Shown here in pieces: positions 1,007 through 60,770 of a stretch of DNA of 64,000 nucleotides. The notes beneath the pieces are model-generated. The model had not been told where the DNA came from and did not search any database. It saw only the letters and a program-made list of their open reading frames with translations. This DNA comes from an uncultured bacterium (lineage in GTDB: Bacteria > Bacillota > Clostridia > Lachnospirales > Lachnospiraceae): positions 59,774-123,773 of the forward strand of contig CANDBT010000008.1 in NCBI GenBank assembly GCA_947383005.1. The letters run 5' to 3'. The position numbers were made by a program, and so were the translations under genes. Numbering within the stretch: position 1 is the stretch's first letter; each line of letters begins with the position of its first letter.

Positions 1007-2272
1007 TCAATCTTCTTTCTTTTGATTGATATATAGATTTTTCATCGTTTCCATATCATGCCAAAGGCGGTCTTCCACCTCTTTATTGGAGCAGGTAAAG
1101 GAGAAAATCCGCCCGGTGAAGCTCTTAATCCAGGGCAGCATTTCCGAGGCGTCCCAACAGGAGCAGGTATATTGATACAAGTCTGGTTTAAGACGGGTGA
1201 TACATCCACCCCGTTTTTCCCGTTCCAGCCGGTGGATGATGTGCTTTTCCGTTTCTTCATTGACGGCTATCTGCAGGCAGACGGTTTCCGGCTTTCGGTT
1301 TGTACCGAAGGAAACACCCCAGGAGATATCGCGGTTTTTTAGAAAATCGCTTAGGTATTGTCCGTAATGGGAATCGATATTCAGTAATTTTACCGTGCGG
1401 ATATTGTCCAGGCGGTAAGAAGCCAGGCGCCGGGTGGAAGATTTATGTATACATATATAATGGCGGCCGGTTTGTGTGCTGATTAGTATTTTCAGAGGGA
1501 CGCCGATGATTGTCCGTTCCGGAGAGGATTTGCCATTGTTGCGGTTCTTGCTGCTCTTTGTGCTAAAGGAGATCTGACGCTTTTCTTTTATGGCAGTCAG
1601 AAGAGAAAGAAGGATTTCATCATCTAATGTGTGAACCAGAAAATTATGGCGGAACCGAAAACACCGGTTGGAAGTATGGTAATAATCAAGTATAGTACTG
1701 CCGATAAAACCTAATGGCGCTGCCGCCTGGAAGAAACTGACGGCATCTAAAAGAGCAGGCAGTAACTGTGAGTTGTTTTCCAGGAACGCAGGAGAAAGGG
1801 AATAAAGATATTGGCGGCTTTCTTTGGAAGCGGTTATCAATCCTTCCTGTATATATTCTGTCAATTTGCGGCGGATAACCTGAGTATCAAATAATATCTG
1901 GTAGCGTTGTAAAAGCGCATCCGCAATATCCTCAATTCCCCATTTTCCGCCTTCCCCCAAAAGATCCAGTAAGAAAAAATGAAGCATGATATCGTTGGCT
2001 GTAAAACTTTTTGATTTCCAGGCGCGATAAAGGGGATTTATGGCAATTTGGCTGCTGTCTATGGTAATAAATACGGATTTTTTGTGATCCGTATGATATT
2101 CATAGCGAATATAACCGGAAAACCAGCTTTCCATCCGCCGTCGTTGATTATCATAAGTCCGGCTGCTTTTATCCTGGTAATCCTGGCGTGTTTTAAAGCC
2201 GTAGAGATAAAAATCGCGGATATAAGAGCGGATTTTGCTGAAATTTTTGATTAATTCATTGTAGTCAGACAT
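1007..2272 (-). CDS. WYL-domain transcriptional regulator
   Basis: This is a 421-residue protein starting MSDYNELIKNFSK. The ATG at 2272 was chosen because AGGAG lies 6 bp upstream; a longer frame to 2353 has no such site. The N-terminal half resembles a helical and winged-helix region (a segment around residues 95-150 reads like a DNA-binding wing). The second half carries a WYL-type core, roughly residues 225-300, with VPLKILIST, a GRHYICIHK strand and ASYRLDNIRTVK, matching the usual 'Y-hydrophobic ... fRldrI' pattern. WYL proteins bind small ligands or nucleic acid and regulate transcription. It lies 2 bp before a second WYL gene and diverges from rtcB across a 176-bp gap, which makes rtcB a plausible target by position only. 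Confidence 0.75.
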   Translation of the reverse strand: MSDYNELIKNFSKIRSYIRDFYLYGFKTRQDYQDKSSRTYDNQRRRMESWFSGYIRYEYHTDHKKSVFITIDSSQIAINPLYRAWKSKSFTANDIMLHFFLLDLLGEGGKWGIEDIADALLQRYQILFDTQVIRRKLTEYIQEGLITASKESRQYLYSLSPAFLENNSQLLPALLDAVSFFQAAAPLGFIGSTILDYYHTSNRCFRFRHNFLVHTLDDEILLSLLTAIKEKRQISFSTKSSKNRNNGKSSPERTIIGVPLKILISTQTGRHYICIHKSSTRRLASYRLDNIRTVKLLNIDSHYGQYLSDFLKNRDISWGVSFGTNRKPETVCLQIAVNEETEKHIIHRLEREKRGGCITRLKPDLYQYTCSCWDASEMLPWIKSFTGRIFSFTCSNKEVEDRLWHDMETMKNLYINQKKED

Positions 2273-2448
2273 AATATTCTCCTGGTGTTTAACAACTTGG
2301 TATTGGCAAATTATTTGGCTTACGGAGATAAATATAGTATAAGGAAAAAGCAAAGAGATGGCAAGCGGGATTTTCGCAGCTTTTTTGAAATGATATATGG
2401 GATGAAAAATGGTAGGATTAGGTTATCAAAAGAATAAGGGGTGAGAAG

Positions 2449-3681
2449 ATGTTTGTAATCTATAATGAAAACACAAAGAAGCCGATCAAAGTCTGGCTTG
2501 AGAATCCGAATGATATAGAGGAGGGCTGTTTGGAACAGGCTTACCATCTGGCCAATCTTCCTTTTATTCACAAGTGGGTATGTCTGATGCCGGATACCCA
2601 TACAGGAAAAGGGATGCCTATTGGCGGGGTGCTTGCGGTGAAGAACGTGATTATCCCTAATGCAGTCGGCGTTGATATTGGATGCGGGATGAATTTTGTT
2701 TCTACAGATGTCCGTATGGATGATATCCGTTCGGTGGTAACAGGAAATGGAACACTGATACAGGCAATGATTTCTGATATTATGAGAAATATTCCTGTGG
2801 GATTTAATTCCCATAAAGAGCGTCAGGTATCTCCGGTATTGGATGAAGCGATGGAGCAGGCAGGGCTTTACCGGGCCAATGAGGAGCTGTTCCCGCTTAT
2901 TGAGGATGCTTATTACCAGGTGGGGACTTTGGGAGGAGGGAATCATTTTATTGAACTGCAGGAGAATCAGGATGGTTATTTGGGAATAATGATTCATTCC
3001 GGCAGCCGTCATTTTGGCAAACGGATTTGCGACGAATATCATCAGAAGGCCCGTATTTTAAATGCCATGTGGCATAGCGGGGTGCCGGATGAATACAGGC
3101 TGGCCTTCCTTCCGGTTCAGTCAGATGAGGGACAGGAATATATATTATGGATGGATCTTGCCATGAGATATGCTTATGAAAACCGCGAGCGGATGATGGA
3201 GAAGGTGAAAGCCGTGGTAGAGGCGAAGATTGGCAAATACCTGGGGAAGCCGGTACGGTTTTCGGAAGAAATCAACTGCCATCATAATTATGCTGCCCTG
3301 GAGCATCATTATGATGAAGATGTCTGGGTTCACCGCAAAGGGGCCACCCGTGTACGGCAAGGAGAGATGGCGGTTATTCCGGGAGCCATGGGATCTTACA
3401 GCTACGTGGTGAAAGGAAAGGGAAAAGAGGAAAGCTTTTGCAGTTCCTCCCACGGGGCAGGGAGGGCATACTCCCGTAAAGGTGCAATGGAGGCTTTTAC
3501 CTGCGAACAGGTAATGGTGGATTTGAAAAAACAAGGTGTGGTATTGGGAAAGTCAAGAAAGTCCGATGTGGCAGAGGAGTGCCGTTTTGCCTATAAGGAT
3601 ATCGAGAAAGTTATGGAAAATCAGCAGGATTTGGTGGAAACGGTAATGAGGCTGAAGACAGTGGGCGTGGTGAAAGGATAA
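2449..3681 (+). CDS. rtcB: RtcB family RNA-splicing ligase
   Basis: RtcB joins 2',3'-cyclic phosphate or 3'-phosphate RNA ends to 5'-OH ends, using GTP and Mn2+. The 410-residue product shows the family motifs in order: PDTHTGKGMPIGG (residues 48-60), GVDIGCGM with the metal-binding cysteine at about 79, GTLGGGNHFIEL, HSGSRHFGK, a paired-histidine HHNYAALEHH segment, RKGATRVRQGE, PGAMGSYSYVVKGKG, and SSSHGAGRAYSR with the histidine expected to be guanylylated. The length fits the shorter bacterial RtcB class. The start has GGGGTGAG just upstream. No rtcA is adjacent. The divergent WYL pair may be its regulator, as RtcR is in E. coli although from a different family. Its role is probably RNA repair after stress cleavage. 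Confidence 0.93.
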   Translation: MFVIYNENTKKPIKVWLENPNDIEEGCLEQAYHLANLPFIHKWVCLMPDTHTGKGMPIGGVLAVKNVIIPNAVGVDIGCGMNFVSTDVRMDDIRSVVTGNGTLIQAMISDIMRNIPVGFNSHKERQVSPVLDEAMEQAGLYRANEELFPLIEDAYYQVGTLGGGNHFIELQENQDGYLGIMIHSGSRHFGKRICDEYHQKARILNAMWHSGVPDEYRLAFLPVQSDEGQEYILWMDLAMRYAYENRERMMEKVKAVVEAKIGKYLGKPVRFSEEINCHHNYAALEHHYDEDVWVHRKGATRVRQGEMAVIPGAMGSYSYVVKGKGKEESFCSSSHGAGRAYSRKGAMEAFTCEQVMVDLKKQGVVLGKSRKSDVAEECRFAYKDIEKVMENQQDLVETVMRLKTVGVVKG

Positions 3682-3705
3682 TCAAGGGGGGCGGGTTTTG
3701 GCTAA

Positions 3706-3734
3706 GCATATTCCTTCTTTTCTTAGCATAGGAT
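3706..3734 (+). promoter_or_regulatory. Predicted sigma-E promoter of spoIIID
   Basis: GCATATT (3706-3712), a 14-bp spacer and CATAGGAT (3727-3734) match KMATATT-N14-CATACAMT at 7/7 and 6/8 positions. The distance to the spoIIID ATG at 3763 is 28 bp. spoIIID is a known member of the sigma-E mother-cell regulon in B. subtilis. The consensus is quoted from memory and no transcript start is available. Confidence 0.65.
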
Positions 3735-3762
3735 GATAAAAACGTCCTTAAAAGGTAAAGCG

Positions 3763-3894
3763 ATGAAGGATTATATCGAAGAGCGGGCGGTGGCTATCGC
3801 GAATTACATTATAGACCACAATGCAACGGTGAGACAGACGGCAAAAAGGTTTGGGATAAGCAAGAGTACGGTACATATGGTAGTAATAAAATAG
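3763..3894 (+). pseudogene. spoIIID: spoIIID, 5' part (interrupted; rejoined by excision)
   Basis: The first 37 codons read MKDYIEERAVAIANYIIDHN... ending GISKSTV. This matches the start of SpoIIID, the mother-cell transcription regulator that acts after sigma-E and before sigma-K. After the histidine of 'STVH' the frame runs into five unrelated codons (MVVIK) and a TAG at 3892, exactly where the TACATA repeat begins. The missing remainder (HKDVTDRLENINPS...) is found intact at 8037-8201 beyond the recombinase. Joining 3763-3876 to 8040-8201 gives 91 residues, close to the usual length of about 90. The break falls inside the helix-turn-helix recognition helix, so this fragment alone should not bind DNA. 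A sigma-E-like promoter precedes it. It is labelled pseudogene only because the gene is split; it may well be functional after excision. Confidence 0.9.
3872..3877 (+). other. Left attachment repeat TACATA
   Basis: TACATA here is followed by TGGTAG, the element arm, and preceded by spoIIID sequence (GAGTACGG). It is identical to the repeat at 8035-8040. The central CA (3874-3875) is the likely crossover dinucleotide, because it is the centre of symmetry in the predicted circle junction. Confidence 0.8.
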
Positions 3895-3928
3895 AACGAT
3901 TGATATAGAGAATCAAATAGATTATCAT

Positions 3929-3979
3929 AAGCCATTTCTGGGAATGCATAAGTATTCAGGAGATGGCTTTGTTTTTTAT
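3929..3979 (+). terminator. Rho-independent terminator inside the element's left end
   Basis: A long hairpin (AAGCCATTTC paired with GAGATGGCTT, plus an inner GAATGC/GTATTC arm around an ATAA loop) is followed by a T-rich tract. It lies 35 bp after the premature stop of the 5' spoIIID fragment, so transcripts from the spoIIID promoter should end here while the element is in place. Confidence 0.7.
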
Positions 3980-4022
3980 TCAATGGAAATTGGTTGTGAA
4001 ACTGAGGGAGGATAGGGTATAA

Positions 4023-4120
4023 TATAACTTATTGGAAATTGCGAAGTAATTTCCGATAAAAGGCACAGCTTTTCGTGCCGTAAATCGATTATAGGAAGCC
4101 GATTTTGCTTCCTATAATAT
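4023..4120. repeat. Repeat A, copy 1 (three-hairpin unit)
   Basis: This unit of about 98 bp contains three successive inverted repeats: TTATTGGAAATT pairing with AATTTCCGATAA, GGCAC with GTGCC, and TATAGGAAGC with GCTTCCTATA. It is closely related to two back-to-back copies at 10182-10380. This copy lies inside the spoIIID element. Confidence 0.8.
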
Positions 4121-4152
4121 ATGTATGATGCAGTAGGTCGTATGTTATGCCA

Positions 4153-4353
4153 GTGCCATTTTTTGATATGCTTGCATGTGCGAAAAGAATGGAAGAGGAA
4201 CAGATTCGTACTTTTGCGGAATATGATGAGAAATACAGTATTCATTACTACTGAGAGGCGTGGACGGATGAATTGTGCAGGCTTTTACAGGAGAATCAGG
4301 ATATCGAAAAATATCAGGAGGTTGCCGGATTTATCTCTGAAAAGGGCAGATAA
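4153..4353 (+). pseudogene. Decayed ORF upstream of the ATPase gene
   Basis: One frame reads [20 protein letters not shown]...IHYY, meets a TGA at 4252-4254, and continues in the same frame as [20 protein letters not shown] to a TAA at 4351. Protein-like composition on both sides of a single nonsense codon suggests a degraded gene of about 65 residues or more. I do not recognise the family. It ends 19 bp before the next start codon. Confidence 0.35.
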
Positions 4354-4372
4354 TGGGAAAAGGAGTGAGTTT

Positions 4373-6067
4373 ATGGCCAGGACAATAGGCATCGGGCGGC
4401 AGGATTTTGAGAAGATCCGTATAAAGCATAATTTTTATATTGATAAGACCCGCTTTATCAAAGAATGGTGGGAGTCGGACGATGACGTGACCTTGATCGC
4501 GCGTCCAAGAAGGTTTGGAAAAACCCTGAATATGAGTATGTTAGAAAAATTCTTTTCTGTAGAATATGAAAGGCGTGGGGAATTGTTCGAGGGTCTGGCT
4601 ATATGGGAAGAAGAACGATATAGAGATTTGCAGGGAACGTATCCACTTATCTTTCTTTCTTTTGCCAATATAAAAGAACAGAATTTTGAAACGGCGCGGA
4701 ATAAGATCTGTCAGATTCTGTCAGACCTCTATTCTAAAAATATATTTCTGCTGGAAACGGAAATATTAGACCCAAAAGAAAGAAAATTTTTTGAAGATGT
4801 GTCAAAGGAGATGGATGACGTGACAGCAACGCTTGCTATCCATCAGTTATCGTTATACCTGGAACGCTGCTACAAGAAAAAAGTGATCATTCTTTTGGAC
4901 GAATACGATACCCCGATGCAGGAGGCATATGTGAATGGGTACTGGAATGAAATGTCAGGGTTCATTCGAAGCCTGTTCAACTCAACATTTAAGACGAACC
5001 CTTATCTGGAGCGGGCGATTATGACAGGCATAACAAGGGTAAGTAAAGAATCAATCTTTTCAGATTTGAATAATCTGGAAGTCGTCACTACAACTTCTGA
5101 TAAATATGCGGATGTTTTTGGATTTACGGAAGAGGAAGTCTTTGCGGCATTGGACGAGTTCGGGCTGTCCGATAAAAAACAGGGGGTGAAGAGATGGTAT
5201 GATGGCTTCACTTTTGGGAAACAGTCAGAGATTTATAATCCATGGTCTATCATCAATTATCTGGATAAGAGGGAGGAAGGATTATATTGGGCGAATACCA
5301 GCTCGAACAGTCTGGTAGGGAAACTTTTGCGGGAAAGCAATCCGGAGATCAAGCAGAAATTCGAGAGCCTTCTGGATGGTAAAGTGCTGATCGCAGAAAT
5401 GGATGAACAGATCATATATGACCAGCTAGATCAGAATGAAGAGGCGATCTGGGCGCTTCTGCTTGCCAGCGGATACCTGAAGGTGAGCCGCTATGAGATC
5501 ATTACGGATGCGTACGGAGGCTGGAAAAAAGAATACACCTTAGAATTGACAAATTTTGAAGTAAGGGTCATGTTCCGGAATATGATCCGGCATTGGTTTG
5601 GTTCTGTAAAGTCGGAATATAATGCATTCATCAGGGCGTTGCTAGGGAATGATGTAAAAGCAATGAATGCCTATATGAATAAAGTGGCAATGAGTACGTT
5701 CAGTTACTTTGATACAGGGAAGAGGCCGTCGGGAAGTGAGCCGGAGCGATTTTACCATGGATTTGTACTGGGACTTATCGTGGAACTGGCGGACCGTTAT
5801 GTGGTCACATCCAACAGAGAAAGCGGATTCGGAAGATATGACGTGATGCTGGAGCCAAGAAGGCAGGAGGATGATGGGATAATTCTGGAATTTAAGGTGC
5901 AGGATATCATTGACGGTGAAAAAGAACTTTCTGATACGGTGGAATCTGCCCTGCGGCAGATTGAGGATAAGAACTATGAGGCTGTGCTGGCAGCGAAGGG
6001 AATTGCGAAAGAGCGGATACGTAAATACGGCTTTGCGTTTCGGGGAAATCAAGTTCTAATTGGATAA
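4373..6067 (+). CDS. AAA-like ATPase with C-terminal PD-(D/E)XK nuclease fold
   Basis: The 564-residue protein starts at an ATG preceded by AAAAGGAG at 7-bp spacing; the open frame extends further upstream but without a good ribosome site. It has the layout of the PF09820 AAA-ATPase-like plus PF08011 nuclease family. A Walker A-like [12 protein letters not shown] lies near residue 42. The Walker B-type [13 protein letters not shown] lies around residue 175. Near the C terminus [11 protein letters not shown] followed by GIILEFKV fits the D...ExK core of PD-(D/E)XK enzymes. The family is very common in gut anaerobes and its function is not established. It is cargo of the spoIIID element and is separated from the recombinase unit by a terminator at 6096-6143. 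A defence or element-maintenance role is only a guess. Confidence 0.85.
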
Positions 6068-6095
6068 AAATCTTTTTTATTGTTATAAGGAGTGT

Positions 6096-6143
6096 AAGGA
6101 CATTCATAGACCGTAAAGAATAGGTCTGAGGATGTCCTTTTTG
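6096..6143 (+). terminator. Terminator after the ATPase gene
   Basis: The stem AGGACAT...AGACC pairs with GGTCT...ATGTCCT and is followed by TTTTT. It separates the ATPase gene from the recombinase transcription unit, whose predicted promoter starts 13 bp further on. Confidence 0.75.
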
Positions 6144-6155
6144 TATTTTAGAAAA

Positions 6156-6184
6156 GCTTATTGACAGAAGAGGGGGGATACAAT
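6156..6184 (+). promoter_or_regulatory. Predicted sigma-E promoter of the recombinase unit
   Basis: GCTTATT (6156-6162), exactly 14 bp, then GATACAAT (6177-6184) match KMATATT-N14-CATACAMT at 6/7 and 7/8 positions. An overlapping TTGACA at 6161-6166 has no well-placed -10 box. Mother-cell expression of the recombinase is what a skin-type switch needs. This is a consensus match from memory, not a mapped start site. Confidence 0.6.
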
Positions 6185-6274
6185 TGTGAAAGATTGTTTG
6201 AGAACGTTTCATAAATTTAGATTGGTTTTCATAGAATGGACAAAGACCATGAGGGCGGGGAGGTGTTTCCCACC

Positions 6275-6442
6275 ATGAGTGATTCTTCAGATGAAAATAA
6301 ACGAAAGTTGAATTACGTTATACATAATCCCAATACCTTAGATGAGACAGTAAAAAAACTGTTGGATGTATTGATTCAGGCAAATGCCGGAAAGGTGGAG
6401 AGGAAGCTTAGGATTTTAGGTACTATCGCAACAACAGAATAA
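6275..6442 (+). CDS. Small ORF preceding the serine recombinase
   Basis: The 55-residue product starts MSDSSDENKRKLNYVIHNP and is charged and probably helical. The ATG at 6275 was chosen because GGGGAGG lies about 10 bp upstream; an in-frame ATG at 6236 lacks such a site. It ends 27 bp before the recombinase start and would be co-transcribed with it from the predicted sigma-E promoter. No catalytic motif is visible. Small ORFs with an 'HNPNT...' segment often sit beside large serine recombinases in Clostridia as far as I recall. It could be a directionality or accessory factor, but nothing in the sequence proves that. Confidence 0.65.
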   Translation: MSDSSDENKRKLNYVIHNPNTLDETVKKLLDVLIQANAGKVERKLRILGTIATTE

Positions 6443-6469
6443 AATAGATTATAACAGAGAGGTATTCCC

Positions 6470-8041
6470 ATGAACATCGCTGCATATTGCCGCGTATCCA
6501 CCGACAAAGCCGACCAATTGAACAGCCTGGAAGCCCAAAAATCTTTTTTTTCCGAATATACGGAACGTACAGGGGACAACCTTGTGCGTCTCTATGCTGA
6601 CGAAGGCATATCCGGCACAAAAATCAAAAACCGAAAAGAATTTCTTCGCATGATGTCCGATGCCGAACATGGTCTGTTCGATATGGTAGTGGTAAAAGAT
6701 ATTTCCCGCTTTGCCAGAAATACGGTAGATCTGCTGCAAAATGTCCGCAAGTTGAAATCTTTTGGTATTGAAACCCAATTTTTGACTGCCAACATGACAA
6801 ATATGGGAAACAGCGAATTTGTCCTAACTATTTTTGGTGCTTTAGCGCAGGAAGAAAGTGCTAACACTTCCAAGCGTGTGAAATTTGGCAAAAAGATGAA
6901 CGCGGAAAAAGGGCGTGTCCCAAACATCGTCTATGGTTATGATAAAACAATAGGCGATTATTTTAATTTAGAAATTAACAAGACAGAAGCGGAAGTAATC
7001 AAGCAGATTTACAGATGGTATTTGCAGGAAGGTTATGGAGCGGCTAAAATTGCCAATATGCTCAATGAAAGAGGACTCAAAACAAAACGAAATTGCAACT
7101 GGAGCCAAAATGCCGTCTGCCGGATTTTAACCAATGAACTTTATACGGGAAAAGTCATTAATGGTAAACAGGAAGTAGAGGATTTTCTTACCGGAAAGCG
7201 GAAAGCCAAAGATGAAACGGAATGGATGGTCATGGAACGTTCCGATCTGAAAATTATTGAGCCATCGGATTTTGAAAAGGCACAGGAAATTCTGCATGGC
7301 AGACATGCTTCATTTAACATGAACAGAGAGCGTCAGAGCAATAAGCATCTCTTTTCCACTTTAATTCGTTGCAAAGAGTGTGGCTGGTCTTTCCGCAGAA
7401 CCGTGCGCACATACAAAAATACTTATGTTCGCTGGGTATGCTCCGGCCATAATGGAAAAGGGGCGAATAGCTGCCCTAATGCAGTCACGGTGGATGAAGA
7501 CGAGATGATTGATGTTTTACAGGAGTATTTTAATCACATTCTCAGCCAGAAAAAGAAGGTAATCCAGTATGTAGTGGGAGAGTTTCAGCGTATTTACAAA
7601 GCAAAAGATGAAAATCTGGAATACGAGAAAGAATTAAAAAGCCAGCTAAACAAATTGACAAAAGCCAGACAGAAATATATGGATATGTACACAGACGATC
7701 TGATTTCCAGACAGGAACTAAATGACAAAATTGGCGGCTCCAGAAAGGAAATCGAACGGCTGAAAAAGGAATTGAAAATGGTATCCTATCATTTGACGAA
7801 AGGAGAGCAGCTGGAAAGTGTTTTAAATCACACGTTCAAGGAAATAGAGGACATTACGGATATTCGGGAGATGACCAACACCCAATTAAAACACATGATT
7901 CAGAAAATTGAAGTGGATAAGGAAGGCAATGTAGAGATTTTTCTGTGTCTGTTCGGGGATTTAGGCTTGGAAGAAAAGGTAATGATTGAGGATGGGTATG
8001 CAAGAAACAGGGACGCTCCAAATAATTACAACCATACATAA
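6470..8041 (+). CDS. Large serine recombinase (SpoIVCA/skin type)
   Basis: The 523-residue protein catalyses site-specific recombination through a serine nucleophile. The resolvase domain covers about residues 1-150 with YCRVSTDKAD (Ser10) and DISRFARNTVDLL. The 'recombinase' domain follows at about 155-260. A zinc ribbon comes next with CKECGWSF and further cysteines at WVCSGHNG and SCPN. A coiled coil occupies about residues 385-450. This is the full architecture and usual length of SpoIVCA-like recombinases, and no motif is missing. The ribosome site is GAGAGG. The TAA stop (8039-8041) overlaps the right TACATA repeat; in the excised circle the frame would run on for ten codons. Its likely job is excision of the element to rebuild spoIIID. 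Confidence 0.93.
   Translation: MNIAAYCRVSTDKADQLNSLEAQKSFFSEYTERTGDNLVRLYADEGISGTKIKNRKEFLRMMSDAEHGLFDMVVVKDISRFARNTVDLLQNVRKLKSFGIETQFLTANMTNMGNSEFVLTIFGALAQEESANTSKRVKFGKKMNAEKGRVPNIVYGYDKTIGDYFNLEINKTEAEVIKQIYRWYLQEGYGAAKIANMLNERGLKTKRNCNWSQNAVCRILTNELYTGKVINGKQEVEDFLTGKRKAKDETEWMVMERSDLKIIEPSDFEKAQEILHGRHASFNMNRERQSNKHLFSTLIRCKECGWSFRRTVRTYKNTYVRWVCSGHNGKGANSCPNAVTVDEDEMIDVLQEYFNHILSQKKKVIQYVVGEFQRIYKAKDENLEYEKELKSQLNKLTKARQKYMDMYTDDLISRQELNDKIGGSRKEIERLKKELKMVSYHLTKGEQLESVLNHTFKEIEDITDIREMTNTQLKHMIQKIEVDKEGNVEIFLCLFGDLGLEEKVMIEDGYARNRDAPNNYNHT
8035..8040 (+). other. Right attachment repeat TACATA
   Basis: The repeat is preceded by the element arm (TTACAACCA) and followed by AAGATGTAACGG, which is spoIIID sequence. 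It matches the left repeat at 3872-3877. Joining at the shared bases restores the STVHKDVTDRL reading of SpoIIID. Confidence 0.8.
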
Positions 8042-8201
8042 AGATGTAACGGATCGTCTGGAGAACATTAACCCTTCTCTGGCAGCCCAAGCACGGATTG
8101 TGTTGGATGTAAACAAATCGGAACGGCATATCCGCGGCGGTTTGGCTACTAGGGAGAAATACCAGCATCGGCTGGCTATATGCAGCAAGCAGGAAGAGTA
8201 A
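8037..8201 (+). pseudogene. spoIIID: spoIIID, 3' part (lacks its own start)
   Basis: From CAT at 8037 the frame reads HKDVTDRLENINPSLAAQAR and continues through NKSERHIRGGLATREKYQ to a stop at 8199-8201, 54 residues in all. This is the second half of SpoIIID, including the conserved 'R-H-[IL]-R-G-G-x-A-T' stretch and the basic C-terminal region used for DNA binding. It has no promoter or ribosome site of its own. The upstream frame that would include it is recombinase sequence in another phase. Together with 3763-3876 it makes a 91-residue SpoIIID with no stop or frameshift at the seam. The absence of decay in either half argues that the joined gene is under selection. Confidence 0.9.
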
Positions 8202-8307: not shown

Positions 8308-9687
8308 TCATTGTAAAAATAGCCGAATTAATAATTGGTAGATTTTCCGGTAAGGTTGGTAGCGCATAGGCAGATCCAACCAGGTTTTTTTATCAAGGAT
8401 ACTTTTCTTGTGAGAGAATGTGAAAAATCCTTCTTTTCCATGGTAGGAGCCCATGCCGCTTTCGCCAAATCCGCCGAATCCCATTTCATTGGTAGCCAGA
8501 TGAACGAGAGTGTCATTGATGCAGCCTCCGCCGAATCCGCAGCGGGCAATGATTTTCTTGGCAAGCCGTTGGCGGCTGGTAAAAATATAGAGAGCCAATG
8601 GATGGGGAAGGGAATTAATCTGGCTGATGGCTTCATCAAAGGAGCTGTATGTTACAATAGGCAGAATGGGGCCAAAGATTTCTTCCTGCATAATGGCATC
8701 GTTAAAGTTTACCTTATCCATAACCGTAGGTTCAATCTGCAGGGTAGCAGGATTGGACTTTCCGCCCATAATGGTTTTAGCAGGATCAATCAACCCGGTC
8801 AGCCGCTTAAAATGTTTTTCATTAATGATTTTTCCGTAATTTTTATTTTGCAGCGGATCTTTGCCCATTTGATAGCGTATCTGCTTGCGTATTTCTTTTA
8901 TTAACTGATATTTGACGGCTTCGTCACAATAAATATAATCAGGAGCCACGCAGGTTTGGCCACAGTTTAAAAATTTGCCGAAAACGATTCGCTTGGCTGC
9001 CAGCCGCAGATTGGCGGTCCGCTCTACGACACAAGGGCTTTTGCCGCCCAGTTCTAAGGTGACAGGAGTCAGATAGGAAGCGGCTTGTTTCATGACTTCG
9101 CGTCCGACGGCCTGGCTTCCGGTAAAAAAGATATAATCAAAGCGCTGCTGAAGGAGACAAGCATTTTCGGCGCGGCCGCCGGTAACTATGCTGACCAGGC
9201 GCGGGTCAAAACATTCGGTAATTAAATCTTGAATAATTTTGCTGGTGAAAGGGGAGTAAGCGCTGGGTTTTACGACGGCCGTATTGCCTGCTGCCAGGGC
9301 ATCCACCAAAGGCTGCATAGTCAGCAGAAAAGGATAATTCCAGGGACTCATGATCAGTACAACCCCATAAGGCGACGGCTTTTGGTAGCTCCTGGCGTGA
9401 AATTGGGGCAGCGGGGTATGTACGTTTTTTTCTTTGGCAAACTGGTAAATGTGTTTTAGCATATAGGTGATTTCATCGAGGACAAGTCCGGTTTCGCACA
9501 TATAGCTTTCAAAACTGCTTTTGCCCAAATCCATGTGGATAGCCTGCGATATGTCTTTTTCGTGTTTTAAAATACATTGTCTCAGTTTACACAAGGCGCG
9601 GATCCGGCTGCTGATTTTTAAGGTGGCGCCGGTAAAAAACCAGGTGCGCTGCGTGTGGATAATTTGTTGGATTTCCTGCTGGTTCAT
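8308..9687 (-). CDS. NAD(P)-dependent aldehyde dehydrogenase (class 3-like)
   Basis: The 459-residue enzyme should oxidise an aldehyde to a carboxylate with NAD(P)+. Family motifs are intact: SPWNYPFLL near residue 114, FFTGS in the nucleotide-binding region, the general-base segment TLELGGKSP, and NCGQTCVAPDY with the catalytic cysteine. The C-terminal part has EEIFGPILP and FGESGMGSYHGKEGF. The lack of an N-terminal extension and the C-terminal hydrophobic LLIRLFLQ resemble the short class 3 / YwdH type. The start has AAAGGGAT upstream. On the same strand, and probably functionally linked, are a small membrane protein (9729-10157) and an iron-type alcohol dehydrogenase (10435-11664). The substrate cannot be read from sequence. 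Confidence 0.9.
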   Translation of the reverse strand: MNQQEIQQIIHTQRTWFFTGATLKISSRIRALCKLRQCILKHEKDISQAIHMDLGKSSFESYMCETGLVLDEITYMLKHIYQFAKEKNVHTPLPQFHARSYQKPSPYGVVLIMSPWNYPFLLTMQPLVDALAAGNTAVVKPSAYSPFTSKIIQDLITECFDPRLVSIVTGGRAENACLLQQRFDYIFFTGSQAVGREVMKQAASYLTPVTLELGGKSPCVVERTANLRLAAKRIVFGKFLNCGQTCVAPDYIYCDEAVKYQLIKEIRKQIRYQMGKDPLQNKNYGKIINEKHFKRLTGLIDPAKTIMGGKSNPATLQIEPTVMDKVNFNDAIMQEEIFGPILPIVTYSSFDEAISQINSLPHPLALYIFTSRQRLAKKIIARCGFGGGCINDTLVHLATNEMGFGGFGESGMGSYHGKEGFFTFSHKKSILDKKTWLDLPMRYQPYRKIYQLLIRLFLQ

Positions 9688-12481: not shown

Positions 12482-12860
12482 ATAATCTCGACAGAGATTA
12501 TACCCGCGCCAGTTCGCGTCCGACCAGAGGGAGGACAAACACCTAAGCGAACTGTGCGCATCCCCCGGAGGGGAAGATATCCGAAGGATATATTGATAAT
12601 CTCGACAGAGATTATACCCGCGCCAGTTCGCGTCCGACCAGAGGGAGGACAAACACCTAAGCGAACTGTGCGCATCCCCCGGAGGGGAAGATATCCGAAG
12701 GATATATTGATAATCTCGACAGAGATTATACCCGCGCCAGTTCGCGTCCGACCAGAGGGAGGACAAACACTTAAGCGAACTGTGCGCATCCCCCGGAGGG
12801 GAAGATATCCGAAGGATATGTGATAATCTCGACAGAGATTATACCCGCGCCAGTTCGATG
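12482..12860. repeat. 114-bp tandem repeat array, three full copies plus a partial
   Basis: Units start at 12482, 12596, 12710 and 12823, each with ATAATCTCGACAGAGATTAT. The first two periods are exactly 114 bp and the third is 113. Each unit holds a palindrome (AATCTCGACAGAGATT), an inverted pair (CAGTTCGC...GCGAACTG), a CCCCCGGAGGGG hairpin and GATATCCGAAGGATAT. Copies are nearly identical, so the array is recent or kept uniform. The last unit stops after CGCCAGTTCG. Because 114 is a multiple of 3, artefact reading frames run through it on both strands. No gene is called here. Confidence 0.92.
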
Positions 12861-19778: not shown

Positions 19779-20702
19779 ATGGACGAGAGGGACGGAGAAC
19801 GCAAGAAAGGACGGAAGCTTTTCCGGGCTTTGCTGACAGGGCTGGTTGCCGGCGTGCTGGGCGTATTTGCAGGAGGAATGGCATTATCGGTCAGGGCAGC
19901 AGACCAATGGCCAGATAAGCCTGGCCAAAAGCGGGTATACGATCAGGCAGAGATTCTGTCGGAGACGGAAGAGGAGACGCTGGCGGAAAGCCTGCAGATG
20001 CTGCGGGAAAAATCAGGGATGGATGCAGTTCTGGTGACGACAAACAATACAGGGGGAAAGTCTTCGGAGCAGTATGCGGATGATTTTTATGATGAATTTG
20101 GATTTGGTGTAGGAAAAGATAAGAGCGGGGTCCTTTATTTGATGGATATGGACAATCGTGAACTGGTTATTTCCGCCTGCGGTGAGATGCTCTGGATCTT
20201 GACGGATAAACGGATAAACGAAATGTTGGATGCCGCCGTTAATGACATGGCTGACGGAGATTATGCGGGTTGTGGCCAGAGGCTAATTGAAAATACCTGG
20301 CATTGGAGTAAAGTGGGGATTGAAAGCGGCCAGTACAATATTGACAGGGAGACGGGAGAGATCAGTTTTTACAAGCCTCGCAAAAGTATCCGCTGGTATG
20401 AGGCGTTGCTCTCGGCTGCGGTGTCTGCTGTTTGTGCGGGAAGCGTGTGCATGAAGGTGAAGCAAGATTATGCCATGGAGAAAGAGAGGGGAAAGATTTC
20501 CGGCTATTATTTGTCATATCGGGCGGGCGCCGGATTTTATTTTCACAATCAGAATGATGTTTTGGTAAACAGCAATATTACGCGGCAGATGATTCCGCGT
20601 ACTTCCCACAGGACAACCAGCCATGTCAGAAGCAGCGGACGCAGCACTACTCACCGCTCCAGCAGCGGGCGTCGCCATGGAGGCGGCGGAAGAAGATTCT
20701 GA
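19779..20702 (+). CDS. TPM-domain membrane protein (YdjH/YgcG-like)
   Basis: The 307-residue product has a basic N terminus, a membrane or signal segment at about residues 16-40 (LLTGLVAGVLGVFAGGMAL), and then a TPM domain of about 130 residues (VYDQAEILSETEEETL..., VLVTTNNTGG, YADDFYDEFGFG, GVLYLMDMDNRELVIS). A second hydrophobic stretch (YEALLSAAVSAVCAGSVC) follows at about 210. The C terminus is rich in Ser, Thr, Arg and Gly and ends in RRHGGGGRRF, a common ending in this family. TPM proteins are membrane-linked, sometimes with phosphatase activity. It is the third gene of the ydj-like set. AGAGGTG precedes the ATG. Confidence 0.8.
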   Translation: MDERDGERKKGRKLFRALLTGLVAGVLGVFAGGMALSVRAADQWPDKPGQKRVYDQAEILSETEEETLAESLQMLREKSGMDAVLVTTNNTGGKSSEQYADDFYDEFGFGVGKDKSGVLYLMDMDNRELVISACGEMLWILTDKRINEMLDAAVNDMADGDYAGCGQRLIENTWHWSKVGIESGQYNIDRETGEISFYKPRKSIRWYEALLSAAVSAVCAGSVCMKVKQDYAMEKERGKISGYYLSYRAGAGFYFHNQNDVLVNSNITRQMIPRTSHRTTSHVRSSGRSTTHRSSSGRRHGGGGRRF

Positions 20703-58652: not shown

Positions 58653-60770
58653 TTGGCTGGAAGAGAATATCCGTTAGAGAGAACCAGGAATATTGGAATC
58701 ATGGCTCATATCGATGCGGGTAAGACTACGTTGACTGAGCGAATTTTATATTATACTGGTGTAAACTATAAGATTGGCGATACCCATGAAGGTACTGCTA
58801 CGATGGACTGGATGGAGCAGGAGCAGGAGAGGGGTATTACGATTACTTCGGCAGCGACTACCTGTCACTGGACTTTGCAGGAGAACTGCAAACCCAAGAA
58901 GGATGCGCTTGAGCACCGGATCAATATTATTGATACTCCCGGACACGTTGATTTTACCGTTGAAGTAGAACGCTCTCTCCGCGTACTGGATGGCGCAGTA
59001 GGCGTGTTCTGCGCAAAGGGCGGTGTGGAGCCGCAGTCTGAGAACGTTTGGCGTCAGGCAGATACCTATAACGTTCCTCGTATGGCATTCATTAATAAGA
59101 TGGATATTATGGGCGCAGATTTCTTTGGCGCTGTAGACCAGATTCGTACACGTTTGGGAAAGAATGCCATTTGCCTGCAATTGCCTATCGGCAAAGAGGA
59201 TGATTTCAAGGGGATTATTGATCTTTTTGAGATGAAGGCATATATTTATAACGATAATAAGGGTGAAGATATCTCTATTATTGATGTGCCGGAAGACATG
59301 CGGGATGATGCGGAATTGTATCATACCGAGCTGGTGGAAAAAATCTGCGAGCTGGATGACGATTTGATGATGCAGTACCTGGAAGGGGAAGAACCTTCCG
59401 TGGAAGATATGAAGAAAGCACTGAGGAAGGCGACCTGCGAATGCACGGCTATTCCCGTATGCTGCGGCAGCGCTTATCGGAACAAAGGTGTGCAGAAACT
59501 TTTGGATGCAATTTTGGAATATATGCCGGCGCCGACGGATATCCCGTCAATTAAGGGTACAGATCCGGACGGCAATGAGATTGAGCGCCATTCTTCGGAC
59601 GAGGAGCCATTCTCTGCGTTGGCATTTAAGATTATGACCGATCCGTTCGTAGGAAAGCTGGCGTTTTTCCGGGTGTATTCCGGTACGCTCAATTCCGGTT
59701 CTTATGTGCTCAATGCGACAAAAGACAAGAAAGAGCGTGTAGGGCGTATTTTGCAGATGCATGCTAACAAGAGACAGGAGCTGGATAAGGTTTATTCCGG
59801 TGATATTGCGGCAGCGGTAGGTTTTAAGCTGACTACTACAGGCGATACCATTTGTGATGAGCAGCATCCGGTGATTCTGGAATCCATGGAATTCCCGGAG
59901 CCGGTTATTGATATCGCTATTGAGCCCAAGACCAAGGCTGGTCAGGGTAAGATGGGCGAGGCATTGGCGAAGCTGGCGGAGGAAGACCCGACTTTCAGAG
60001 CGAGGACCGATCAAGAGACAGGCCAGACGATTATTTCCGGTATGGGCGAGCTGCATTTGGAGATTATTGTAGACCGTCTGCTTCGGGAGTTCAAGGTTGA
60101 GGCTAATGTAGGGGCGCCTCAGGTTGCTTACAAAGAGTCCTTTACCAAGGCTGTGGACGTGGATAGTAAATATGCCAAGCAATCCGGCGGACGTGGTCAA
60201 TATGGGCATTGTAAAGTGCATTTTGAACCTATGGATGCCAATGCTGAGGAAACGTTTAAGTTTGAGTCTACAGTCGTAGGCGGCGCTATCCCGAAGGAGT
60301 ATATCCCGGCGGTAGGCGCAGGTATCGAAGAGGCTTCGAAAACAGGTGTACTGGCTGGTTTCCCTGTGTTGGGTGTAAAGGCAACCGTTTATGATGGCTC
60401 TTATCATGAGGTAGACTCCAGTGAGATGGCATTCAAAATTGCCGGCTCCATGGCGTTTAAAGAAGCAATGCAGAAGGCTGGTTCCATTCTGCTTGAGCCG
60501 ATTATGAAGGTGGAAGTGACTATGCCTGAGGAATATATGGGTGATGTAATCGGGGATATCAATTCCCGTCGCGGCCGTATTGAAGGTATGGATGATTTGG
60601 GAGGCGGCAAGATTGTAAGAGCATATGTGCCTCTTTCCGAAATGTTTGGCTATTCCACAGACCTGCGTTCAAAGACCCAGGGCAGAGGCAACTACTCGAT
60701 GTTTTTTGAGCGGTATGAGCCGGTTCCCAAGTCTGTGCAGGAAAAGATTGTATCCGAACACAAGAACTAA
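58653..60770 (+). CDS. fusA: Elongation factor G
   Basis: EF-G is the GTPase that moves tRNA and mRNA after peptide bond formation. The 705-residue protein has G1 [13 protein letters not shown], switch I/G2 with [12 protein letters not shown]3 DTPGHVDFT and G4 NKMD. Domain II-V motifs include [38 protein letters not shown] and a C-terminal [14 protein letters not shown]. The start is TTG, preceded by AGGAGG at 8-bp spacing; the N terminus ([20 protein letters not shown]) begins where EF-G normally does. tuf follows 109 bp later. Confidence 0.98.

Follow-up and report, generated by a model that had tools for sequence, protein, structure and literature searches.

Intervening elements that split sporulation genes have been reported in sigK, spoVFB, spoVR, spsM, gerE and yabG (PMC5595907, PMC4191935, PMC6957869, PMC10747680). 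The skin element of Clostridioides difficile is described as targeting sigK, with CD1231 as its recombinase and CD1234 as its directionality factor, the latter being a small protein expressed under sigma-E and SpoIIID (PMC5025042), and gerE, the gene split by gin in Bacillus cereus ATCC 10987, is reported to be rebuilt in sporulation (PMC5595907). SPbeta in spsM, vfbin in spoVFB, vrin in spoVR and yin in yabG are likewise reported to carry their own recombinase (PMC4191935, PMC6957869, PMC10747680). SpoIIID, for its part, is described as having a role in the mother cell (PMC517825, PMC3789822). Here we describe a spoIIID gene that is interrupted at its His38 codon by a 4,163-bp element with its own large serine recombinase, found in a stretch of 64,000 nucleotides (hereafter the window; positions 59,774 to 123,773 of contig CANDBT010000008.1, assembly GCA_947383005.1) from an uncultured bacterium of the Lachnospiraceae.

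An earlier, sequence-only reading of this DNA had supposed that spoIIID was not an established target of such elements, and our search agreed, finding no report of it in the open-access literature (subscription journals and supplements lay outside the search). The word spoIIID is absent from the main text of a systematic survey of large serine recombinases (PMC10083194), and a further paper reports only that a phage carries a spoIIID gene (PMC5027557). By the comparisons given below, the window locus is one member of a large family, beyond the single locus first described, and we consider it very probable that this is a family of mobile elements which use spoIIID as their attB site and from which the gene is rebuilt in the mother cell.

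The split spoIIID locus

The element occupies positions 3878-8040 of the window (all features of this locus are on the forward strand), as placed by fusion of the gene halves and by the empty site in relatives, and is bounded by two copies of TACATA at 3872-3877 and 8035-8040, spaced by 4163 bp. Codons 1-38 of spoIIID lie at 3763-3876, where the unrearranged frame stops at 3892-3894, and codons 39-91 with the stop codon lie at 8040-8201; both halves match Pfam PF12116. Merging the TACATA copies gave an open 91-residue SpoIIID with STVHKDV spanning the seam, which reproduced the product predicted by the sequence-only reading, and coordinates, Pfam matches and fusion all agreed with its description of a split gene bounded by these repeats. 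Upstream of the 5' half is a sigma-E-type promoter (3706-3734), with a -35 element GCATATT (3706-3712), a 14-bp spacer and a -10 element CATAGGAT (3727-3734).

The same gene was found without the element in close relatives. At four loci (L006, L007, L011 and L013) the sequences matching window positions 3726-3877 and 8035-8201 are contiguous and overlap by exactly 6 bp, as expected of an empty site, and in all four an aldehyde dehydrogenase gene (Pfam) follows spoIIID in the same order as downstream of the window's gene. A full-length spoIIID match was present in 20 of 24 genomes of the genus, two of which (G014 and G016) additionally hold one partial match; the remaining four, the window's own genome (G000) together with G004, G005 and G021, gave partial matches only. 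The host assembly (4.99 Mb in 136 contigs, 97.9% complete) was also searched for a second intact spoIIID, and the Pfam SpoIIID profile found the two partial pieces and no other match, a copy in the missing part of the genome remaining possible.

The attL site (3846-3903) consists of the left half of attB, contributed by spoIIID, the core TACATA (3872-3877) with a central CA, and the right arm of attP, and the attR site (8011-8066) of the left arm of attP, which lies within the 3' end of the recombinase gene, the core at 8035-8040 and the right half of attB in spoIIID. When the element ends were joined, the resulting attP was an imperfect palindrome with 17 of 26 arm positions matching, compared to a maximum of 16 at 20,000 random places in the window, and its centre is the CA dinucleotide with which the His38 codon begins. 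The recombinase (523 residues, 6470-8041) matches phage integrase families and has the attributes of a large serine recombinase, namely Resolvase, Recombinase and Zn-ribbon domains (Pfam) and a palindromic attP around a 2-bp core. The gene has a TAA stop that arises at the attR junction, where a single base of spoIIID completes it. The empty sites, the palindromic attP and the pairing of recombinase with spoIIID in other genomes together argue that a chance origin of the split arrangement is excluded.

The other clear open reading frames (ORFs) of the element are a small ORF of 55 amino acids (6275-6442), considered below, and a cargo gene (564 amino acids, 4373-6067) with AAA-ATPase-like and PDDEXK_9 nuclease domains (Pfam PF09820, 7.6e-45, and PF08011, 2e-16), and a Pfam scan found no phage structural gene among the three. 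Elsewhere in the window, 3.3 near-identical tandem units of 114 bp (98% matches) lie in a region of overlapping ORFs at 12482-12857.

A recombinase lineage paired with spoIIID

A scan of a genome collection covering 84,980 species, each represented by a single genome, returned 104 relatives of the recombinase, and among the best 80 of these the spoIIID 3' half lay no more than 320 nt from the recombinase stop in 76, with the stop falling exactly at the spoIIID junction in 65 of the 76. The exceptions were a locus with the 3' half 2.4 kb further on (L108), one ending at a contig edge (L107), one with the 5' half approximately 0.5 kb upstream and the 3' half approximately 7 kb downstream (L109), and one, the sole such case among the 80, in which the recombinase is inserted at a site other than spoIIID (L051:5965-7563). 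These pairings demonstrate, at the level of sequence, a recombinase lineage dedicated to the spoIIID site.

Partial spoIIID matches only were found in 47 of the 50 genomes behind these loci, and a full-length copy in three. One of the three is G041, the genome of the L051 locus, where spoIIID is intact and the recombinase is located elsewhere; the intact genes of the other two (G034 and G040) were considered as rearranged copies and rejected, as their sequences differ from the halves in the same genomes, and contamination or a paralogue is the likely source. Fusing the halves gave a stop-free, SpoIIID-like product in 45 of 45 genomes, including that of the window. This test considered 51 genomes, and for six of them (G027, G034, G041, G063, G068 and G071) the examined loci did not contain a pair; the profile anchor was shifted where it was one codon off, and the first 5' half was taken where there were several. 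The attL and attR arms are recognisably alike between genomes and the same junctions recur in independent assemblies, and in Schaedlerella arabinosiphila and Sporofaciens musculi both halves lie on one contig of several megabases.

Three genomes have two or three spoIIID 5' halves and a single 3' half (G029 at L178, G033 at L145 and G035 at L146). Most of these 5' halves have an att arm and an upstream block bearing a sigma-E-type -10 element, with a decayed copy in each of G033 and G035, and it is possible that they serve as alternative partners for rebuilding. The partial matches in G016 (L254, reverse strand, 8551-8676) and G014 (L255, reverse strand, 3553-3666) are decayed 5' halves upstream of an intact spoIIID, and are probably the scars of lost elements. 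We read the tandem and decayed 5' halves as probable traces of repeated insertion and loss.

The frequency of insertion was estimated in 250 genomes of the window's family, sampled at nearly one per genus. A SpoIIID match over the cut-off was present in 159, of which 140 were near full length and 19 partial only, and was missing from 91. Insertions were found in 18 of the 159, 15 of the window's type and three of a second type. Three of the 19 partial cases had been recognised as insertions beforehand (the window together with G094 and G229, the latter two being by coordinates the same genomes as G053 and G045), 15 of the other 16 have an att arm or an adjoining recombinase, and the last (G171) was rejected as an insertion, being a contig break. 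The insertions in G075 and G285 are visible from the 5' side only, those in G117 and G298 are of the window's type with recombinases only 45-48% identical, and that in G266 lies in a genome assembled as one contig.

The second type (G134, G185 and G216; L261, about 1739-7030 on the reverse strand, L263:1-4685 and L264:4800-10016) interrupts spoIIID one or two codons later than the window's type and has three tandem serine recombinases, 22-29% identical to that of the window, directly upstream of the 3' half; in the two cases tested, Resolvase and Recombinase domains were present in the recombinase closest to spoIIID. The loci L226, L231 and L233, tried as members of the window's family, were rejected as belonging to the distantly related three-recombinase type. 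Where both halves are on one contig (n=47), element size ranged from approximately 3.5 to 75 kb, with a median of 9.3 kb. One element has McrBC-like, RES, MobA/L and RepA genes among its cargo, a second has an AbiLi-like gene, and the 75-kb insertion in spoIIID (G162:C33:63511-138633) is possibly a large prophage or conjugative element.

Recombinase divergence and host-gene divergence disagree, which indicates that the elements move between hosts. Across 30 genomes, recombinase and sigK distances were correlated only partially, at a Mantel r of 0.36 (0 of 2000 permutations as high). The window's recombinase shares 92% identity with its counterpart in G024, where sigK is 55% identical, whereas a genus-mate (G066) shares 90% identity in sigK and 77% in the recombinase. 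A quick FastTree tree pointed the same way, with the recombinases of L080, L096 and L099 forming a cluster apart from the window's. Between G058 and G066, the proportion of synonymous differences (pS) was 0.07 for the recombinase compared with 0.75 for spoIIID; for the closely related G028, G030 and G036 the order was the reverse (0.23-0.27 compared with 0.09-0.10), a pattern that suggests turnover of elements at the spoIIID site. The proportion of non-synonymous differences (pN) was 0.005-0.044 in 17 recombinase pairs with pS of 0.07-0.45, values that point to purifying selection on the recombinase.

Phages seem to use the same module of recombinase and small ORF. A 62-kb phage-like IMG/VR contig (IMGVR_UViG_3300028833_003189; L241 and L242) encodes an endolysin, a DNA ligase, a 68% identical recombinase and the small ORF, and has an uninterrupted attP. 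Separately, MT838016.1 (L253), labelled as a phage from human faeces, carries a spoIIID 3' half after its recombinase and looks like an integrated element.

The small ORF, its promoter and the recombinase tail

A small ORF of the same family as that of the window, named here by its motif KLNYxIHNPN, precedes the recombinase, in the same orientation, at 64 of the 80 loci searched (the window and 79 of the 80 relatives, L066 being left out); several of the 16 misses are on short contigs, and L092 has a second, weaker match on the opposite strand. Within the genus, it is present in exactly the four of 24 genomes that have a split spoIIID and in none of the other 20. The 55-residue product had no NCBIfam or PHROG match, and a longer in-frame ORF had no Pfam match.

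A strict sigma-E-type pattern preceded 16 of 59 small ORFs (mean of 0.6 and at most 3 in shuffles) and 31 of 49 spoIIID 5' halves (mean of 0.4 in shuffles), and none of 78 recombinases. Many other small ORFs carry a shared promoter form, CATAGTTATG, and the window's promoter (6211-6245) reads ATAAATTT (6211-6218), a -10 element CATAGAAT (6230-6237) and then GGACAAAG (6238-6245). The -35 part of CATAGTTATG is closer to the AC of sigma-K than to the ATA of sigma-E as given in a description of C. difficile promoters (PMC3789822), and we therefore propose a mother-cell-type promoter for the small ORF and claim no specific sigma factor. The 55-residue protein is likely to be the recombination directionality factor of the element, and is treated here as a candidate for that role.

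The promoter is followed by GGACAA in 25 of 50 non-redundant cases, compared to 1.4 in shuffles (of 64 small ORFs, 60 had a usable CATA and 50 were left after removal of near-duplicates). GGACAAG is a SpoIIID consensus, for which no supporting paper was found, and sigK is a target of SpoIIID in other organisms. Upstream of sigK the motif occurred in 6 of 30 cases compared with 3.8 in shuffles, which is no enrichment, and a role for GGACAA as a SpoIIID box acting in feedback is not claimed. For C. difficile, the SpoIIID box is given as KRTAACARK (PMC5025042).

The reading frame of the recombinase passes through attP (window 8036-8041 and 3875-3908), such that the enzyme encoded by the circular form would gain a C-terminal tail. 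When the frame was read through into attL in 50 sequences, 21 stopped after exactly 15 codons (counting the core Thr), eight after 19 and five after 18, with four stopping immediately (G028, G030, G032 and G036), three staying open for at least 25 codons and the remainder scattered. The 15-codon tail has the consensus TYGSNKIER[FL][VI]WxIx, and the recombinase of the phage form (L241) ends in ERFIWLIS; in the window copy the Trp codon is a stop and the tail is 11 codons long. Conservation of the tail stems in part from conservation of the att arm as DNA, and the [FL][VI]Wx[IV] end lies beyond that arm and shows variation at synonymous positions.

Proposed excision in the mother cell, its alternatives and known elements

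In the mechanism that we propose, sigma-E would activate the 55-residue protein in the mother cell, where it would act as directionality factor for the serine recombinase of the element. The recombinase would then cross attL with attR at the CA and free the element as a circle, an intact spoIIID would be left behind and SpoIIID would be produced. The forespore copy would remain interrupted and pass the element on, and excision that is confined to a doomed cell and repairs the gene could account for a low cost to the host and for spread among hosts.

Several points weigh against this proposal. An attP pattern (loose in the left arm and strict in the right) found no circle junction over 58 genome entries, among which G004 and G069, and G005 and G066, are the same genomes; this was a weak test, as its 23 matches in 21 entries were all of attL type and in the other entries even the att arms present escaped the pattern. 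Position, conservation and promoter are the grounds on which the 55-residue protein is a candidate for the directionality-factor role. No report was found of spore formation by a carrier, and one carrier bears the name Sporofaciens. As pN/pS across all pairs is saturated and most insertions are recent, most conservation of the halves predating insertion, that conservation is by itself weak evidence, and no proof, for use of the fused gene.

We regard it as very unlikely that the element simply sterilises its host, breaking spoIIID in lineages that do not sporulate with the halves intact because the insertion is young. The recent age of many insertions would fit this, as would the common loss of spoIIID (91 of the 250 family genomes lacking a match over the cut-off), but SpoIVA was found, at full length, in 18 of 18 split genomes, as in 20 of 20 intact genomes (picked by hand from 140), and in only 3 of 20 genomes without spoIIID (those listed of 85). 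The sigma-K profile also matched in every one of 33 split genomes; 30 of them have a pair of nearly full-length sigma-K/E-type matches, interpreted as sigma-K plus a paralogue, and 10, including the window's genome, pass the curated sigma-K cut-off; sigK was taken as the best match to the profile, and the single match in G055 may be another sigma factor. Retention of SpoIVA and sigma-K speaks against sterilisation, as do the 45 stop-free fusions of 45, the recurrence of recognisable att arms, the mother-cell-type promoter in front of the small ORF and purifying selection on the recombinase. A different history, in which the host has domesticated the element as a developmental gate that delays SpoIIID in the way that skin delays sigma-K in C. 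difficile, draws on the position of SpoIIID in the cascade, on the premature sigma-K activity reported on deletion of skin (PMC5025042) and on the sigK of the window's genome (G000:C12:14188-14799, best match), which is unsplit and matches from model position 24 of 227. It thus seems to lack a pro-sequence, and both classical controls of sigma-K seem to be absent from this genome. A domesticated gate is nonetheless decidedly improbable, given full-length spoIIID in 20 of the 24 genus genomes, horizontal movement with turnover in close hosts (G028, G030 and G036) and the variable size (about 3.5-75 kb) and cargo of the elements.

That the two halves function unexcised, as separate peptides, is very improbable; the 5' half does have its own promoter and a short ORF, and the 3' half lies inside an ORF from 7986, but the helix-turn-helix region would be cut, the sequence preceding the 3' half is an attP arm that differs among elements, and the elements have kept their att arms together with a recombinase on which purifying selection acts. 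An artefact of assembly or binning is hardly credible as a source of the split gene. Many carriers are metagenome assemblies, but G266 is a single contig, which excludes an artefact there, and the contigs of S. arabinosiphila and S. musculi, with both halves, and the recurrence of the junctions in independent assemblies exclude it for the family.

The reading that we prefer remains a mobile family that lands in spoIIID and leaves it in the mother cell. The sequence-only reading had transferred the logic of the sigK skin element to spoIIID and suggested that entry into the late mother-cell programme is gated by rearrangement. The self-encoded recombinase, the att sites, the in-frame rebuilding, the missing second copy and the retained sporulation genes bear out the first part, whereas excision and an obligate gate are still conjectural; with the element being optional in the genus and horizontally mobile, spoIIID is better seen as a landing site than as the seat of a dedicated gate. 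If excision is confirmed, SpoIIID, which acts between sigma-E and sigma-K, would join the few sporulation genes rebuilt by DNA rearrangement, and the rebuilding would concern roughly one in nine of the sampled SpoIIID-positive genomes of the family (18 of 159) and not a single strain. Genomes with half-length pieces only are at risk of being annotated as lacking spoIIID. Named, cultured carriers exist, among them the gut commensals Schaedlerella arabinosiphila DSM 106076, Extibacter muris DSM 28560, Blautia schinkii MSK.6.26 and Agathobaculum butyriciproducens DSM 100391, so that the prediction is testable now, and the recombinases form a large set with well-defined att sites.

Integration-dependent switching is known in temperate phages, where attP lies inside a regulatory gene. 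The recombinase tail is similar in that attP lies in the coding end and integration alters the C-terminus of a protein of the element, and differs in that the altered protein is the recombinase itself, whose cut end would return on excision. We put forward, as a tentative idea only, that integration itself edits the integrase, with the long form made by the circle favouring integration and the short form, with the directionality factor, favouring excision. Together with a sigma-E-driven factor, possibly shut off by SpoIIID, this would make a self-limiting, one-shot circuit that has reached much of the gut Lachnospiraceae and other bacteria besides, and in some spore-forming members of the gut flora the onset of SpoIIID would come to depend on DNA rearrangement.

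The locus has the features of a skin-like element, in that a mother-cell sporulation gene is split, fusion at short repeats restores its frame and the element encodes its own site-specific recombinase. Like skin as described in C. difficile, it places a large serine recombinase in the gene of a mother-cell regulator, in a host whose sigma-K seems to lack a pro-sequence, and has a small directionality factor, here a candidate, behind a sigma-E promoter, here one of mother-cell type (PMC5025042). Unlike skin, it is inserted in spoIIID, one step earlier than sigK, which is itself unsplit, and it belongs to a family that is widespread and horizontally mobile. The directionality factor of C. difficile needs SpoIIID, a dependence that is impossible here before excision, and the wiring must therefore differ. 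The resemblance to gin lies in a non-phage element with a serine recombinase that splits the short gene of a mother-cell transcription factor, whereas the window element has one recombinase in 4.2 kb and gin is reported with three in 28.6 kb (PMC5595907); the second spoIIID type (L261, L263 and L264) is like gin in its number of recombinase ORFs, a resemblance by gene content only. SPbeta, vfbin, vrin and yin differ in having other target genes and in being mostly prophage-like, spoIIID not being named as a target in the accessible text of those reports (PMC4191935, PMC6957869, PMC10747680). The mechanism proposed here is thus of a known kind, and what is new to us is the target spoIIID, the spread of the family, the candidate directionality factor and the swapped tail of the recombinase.

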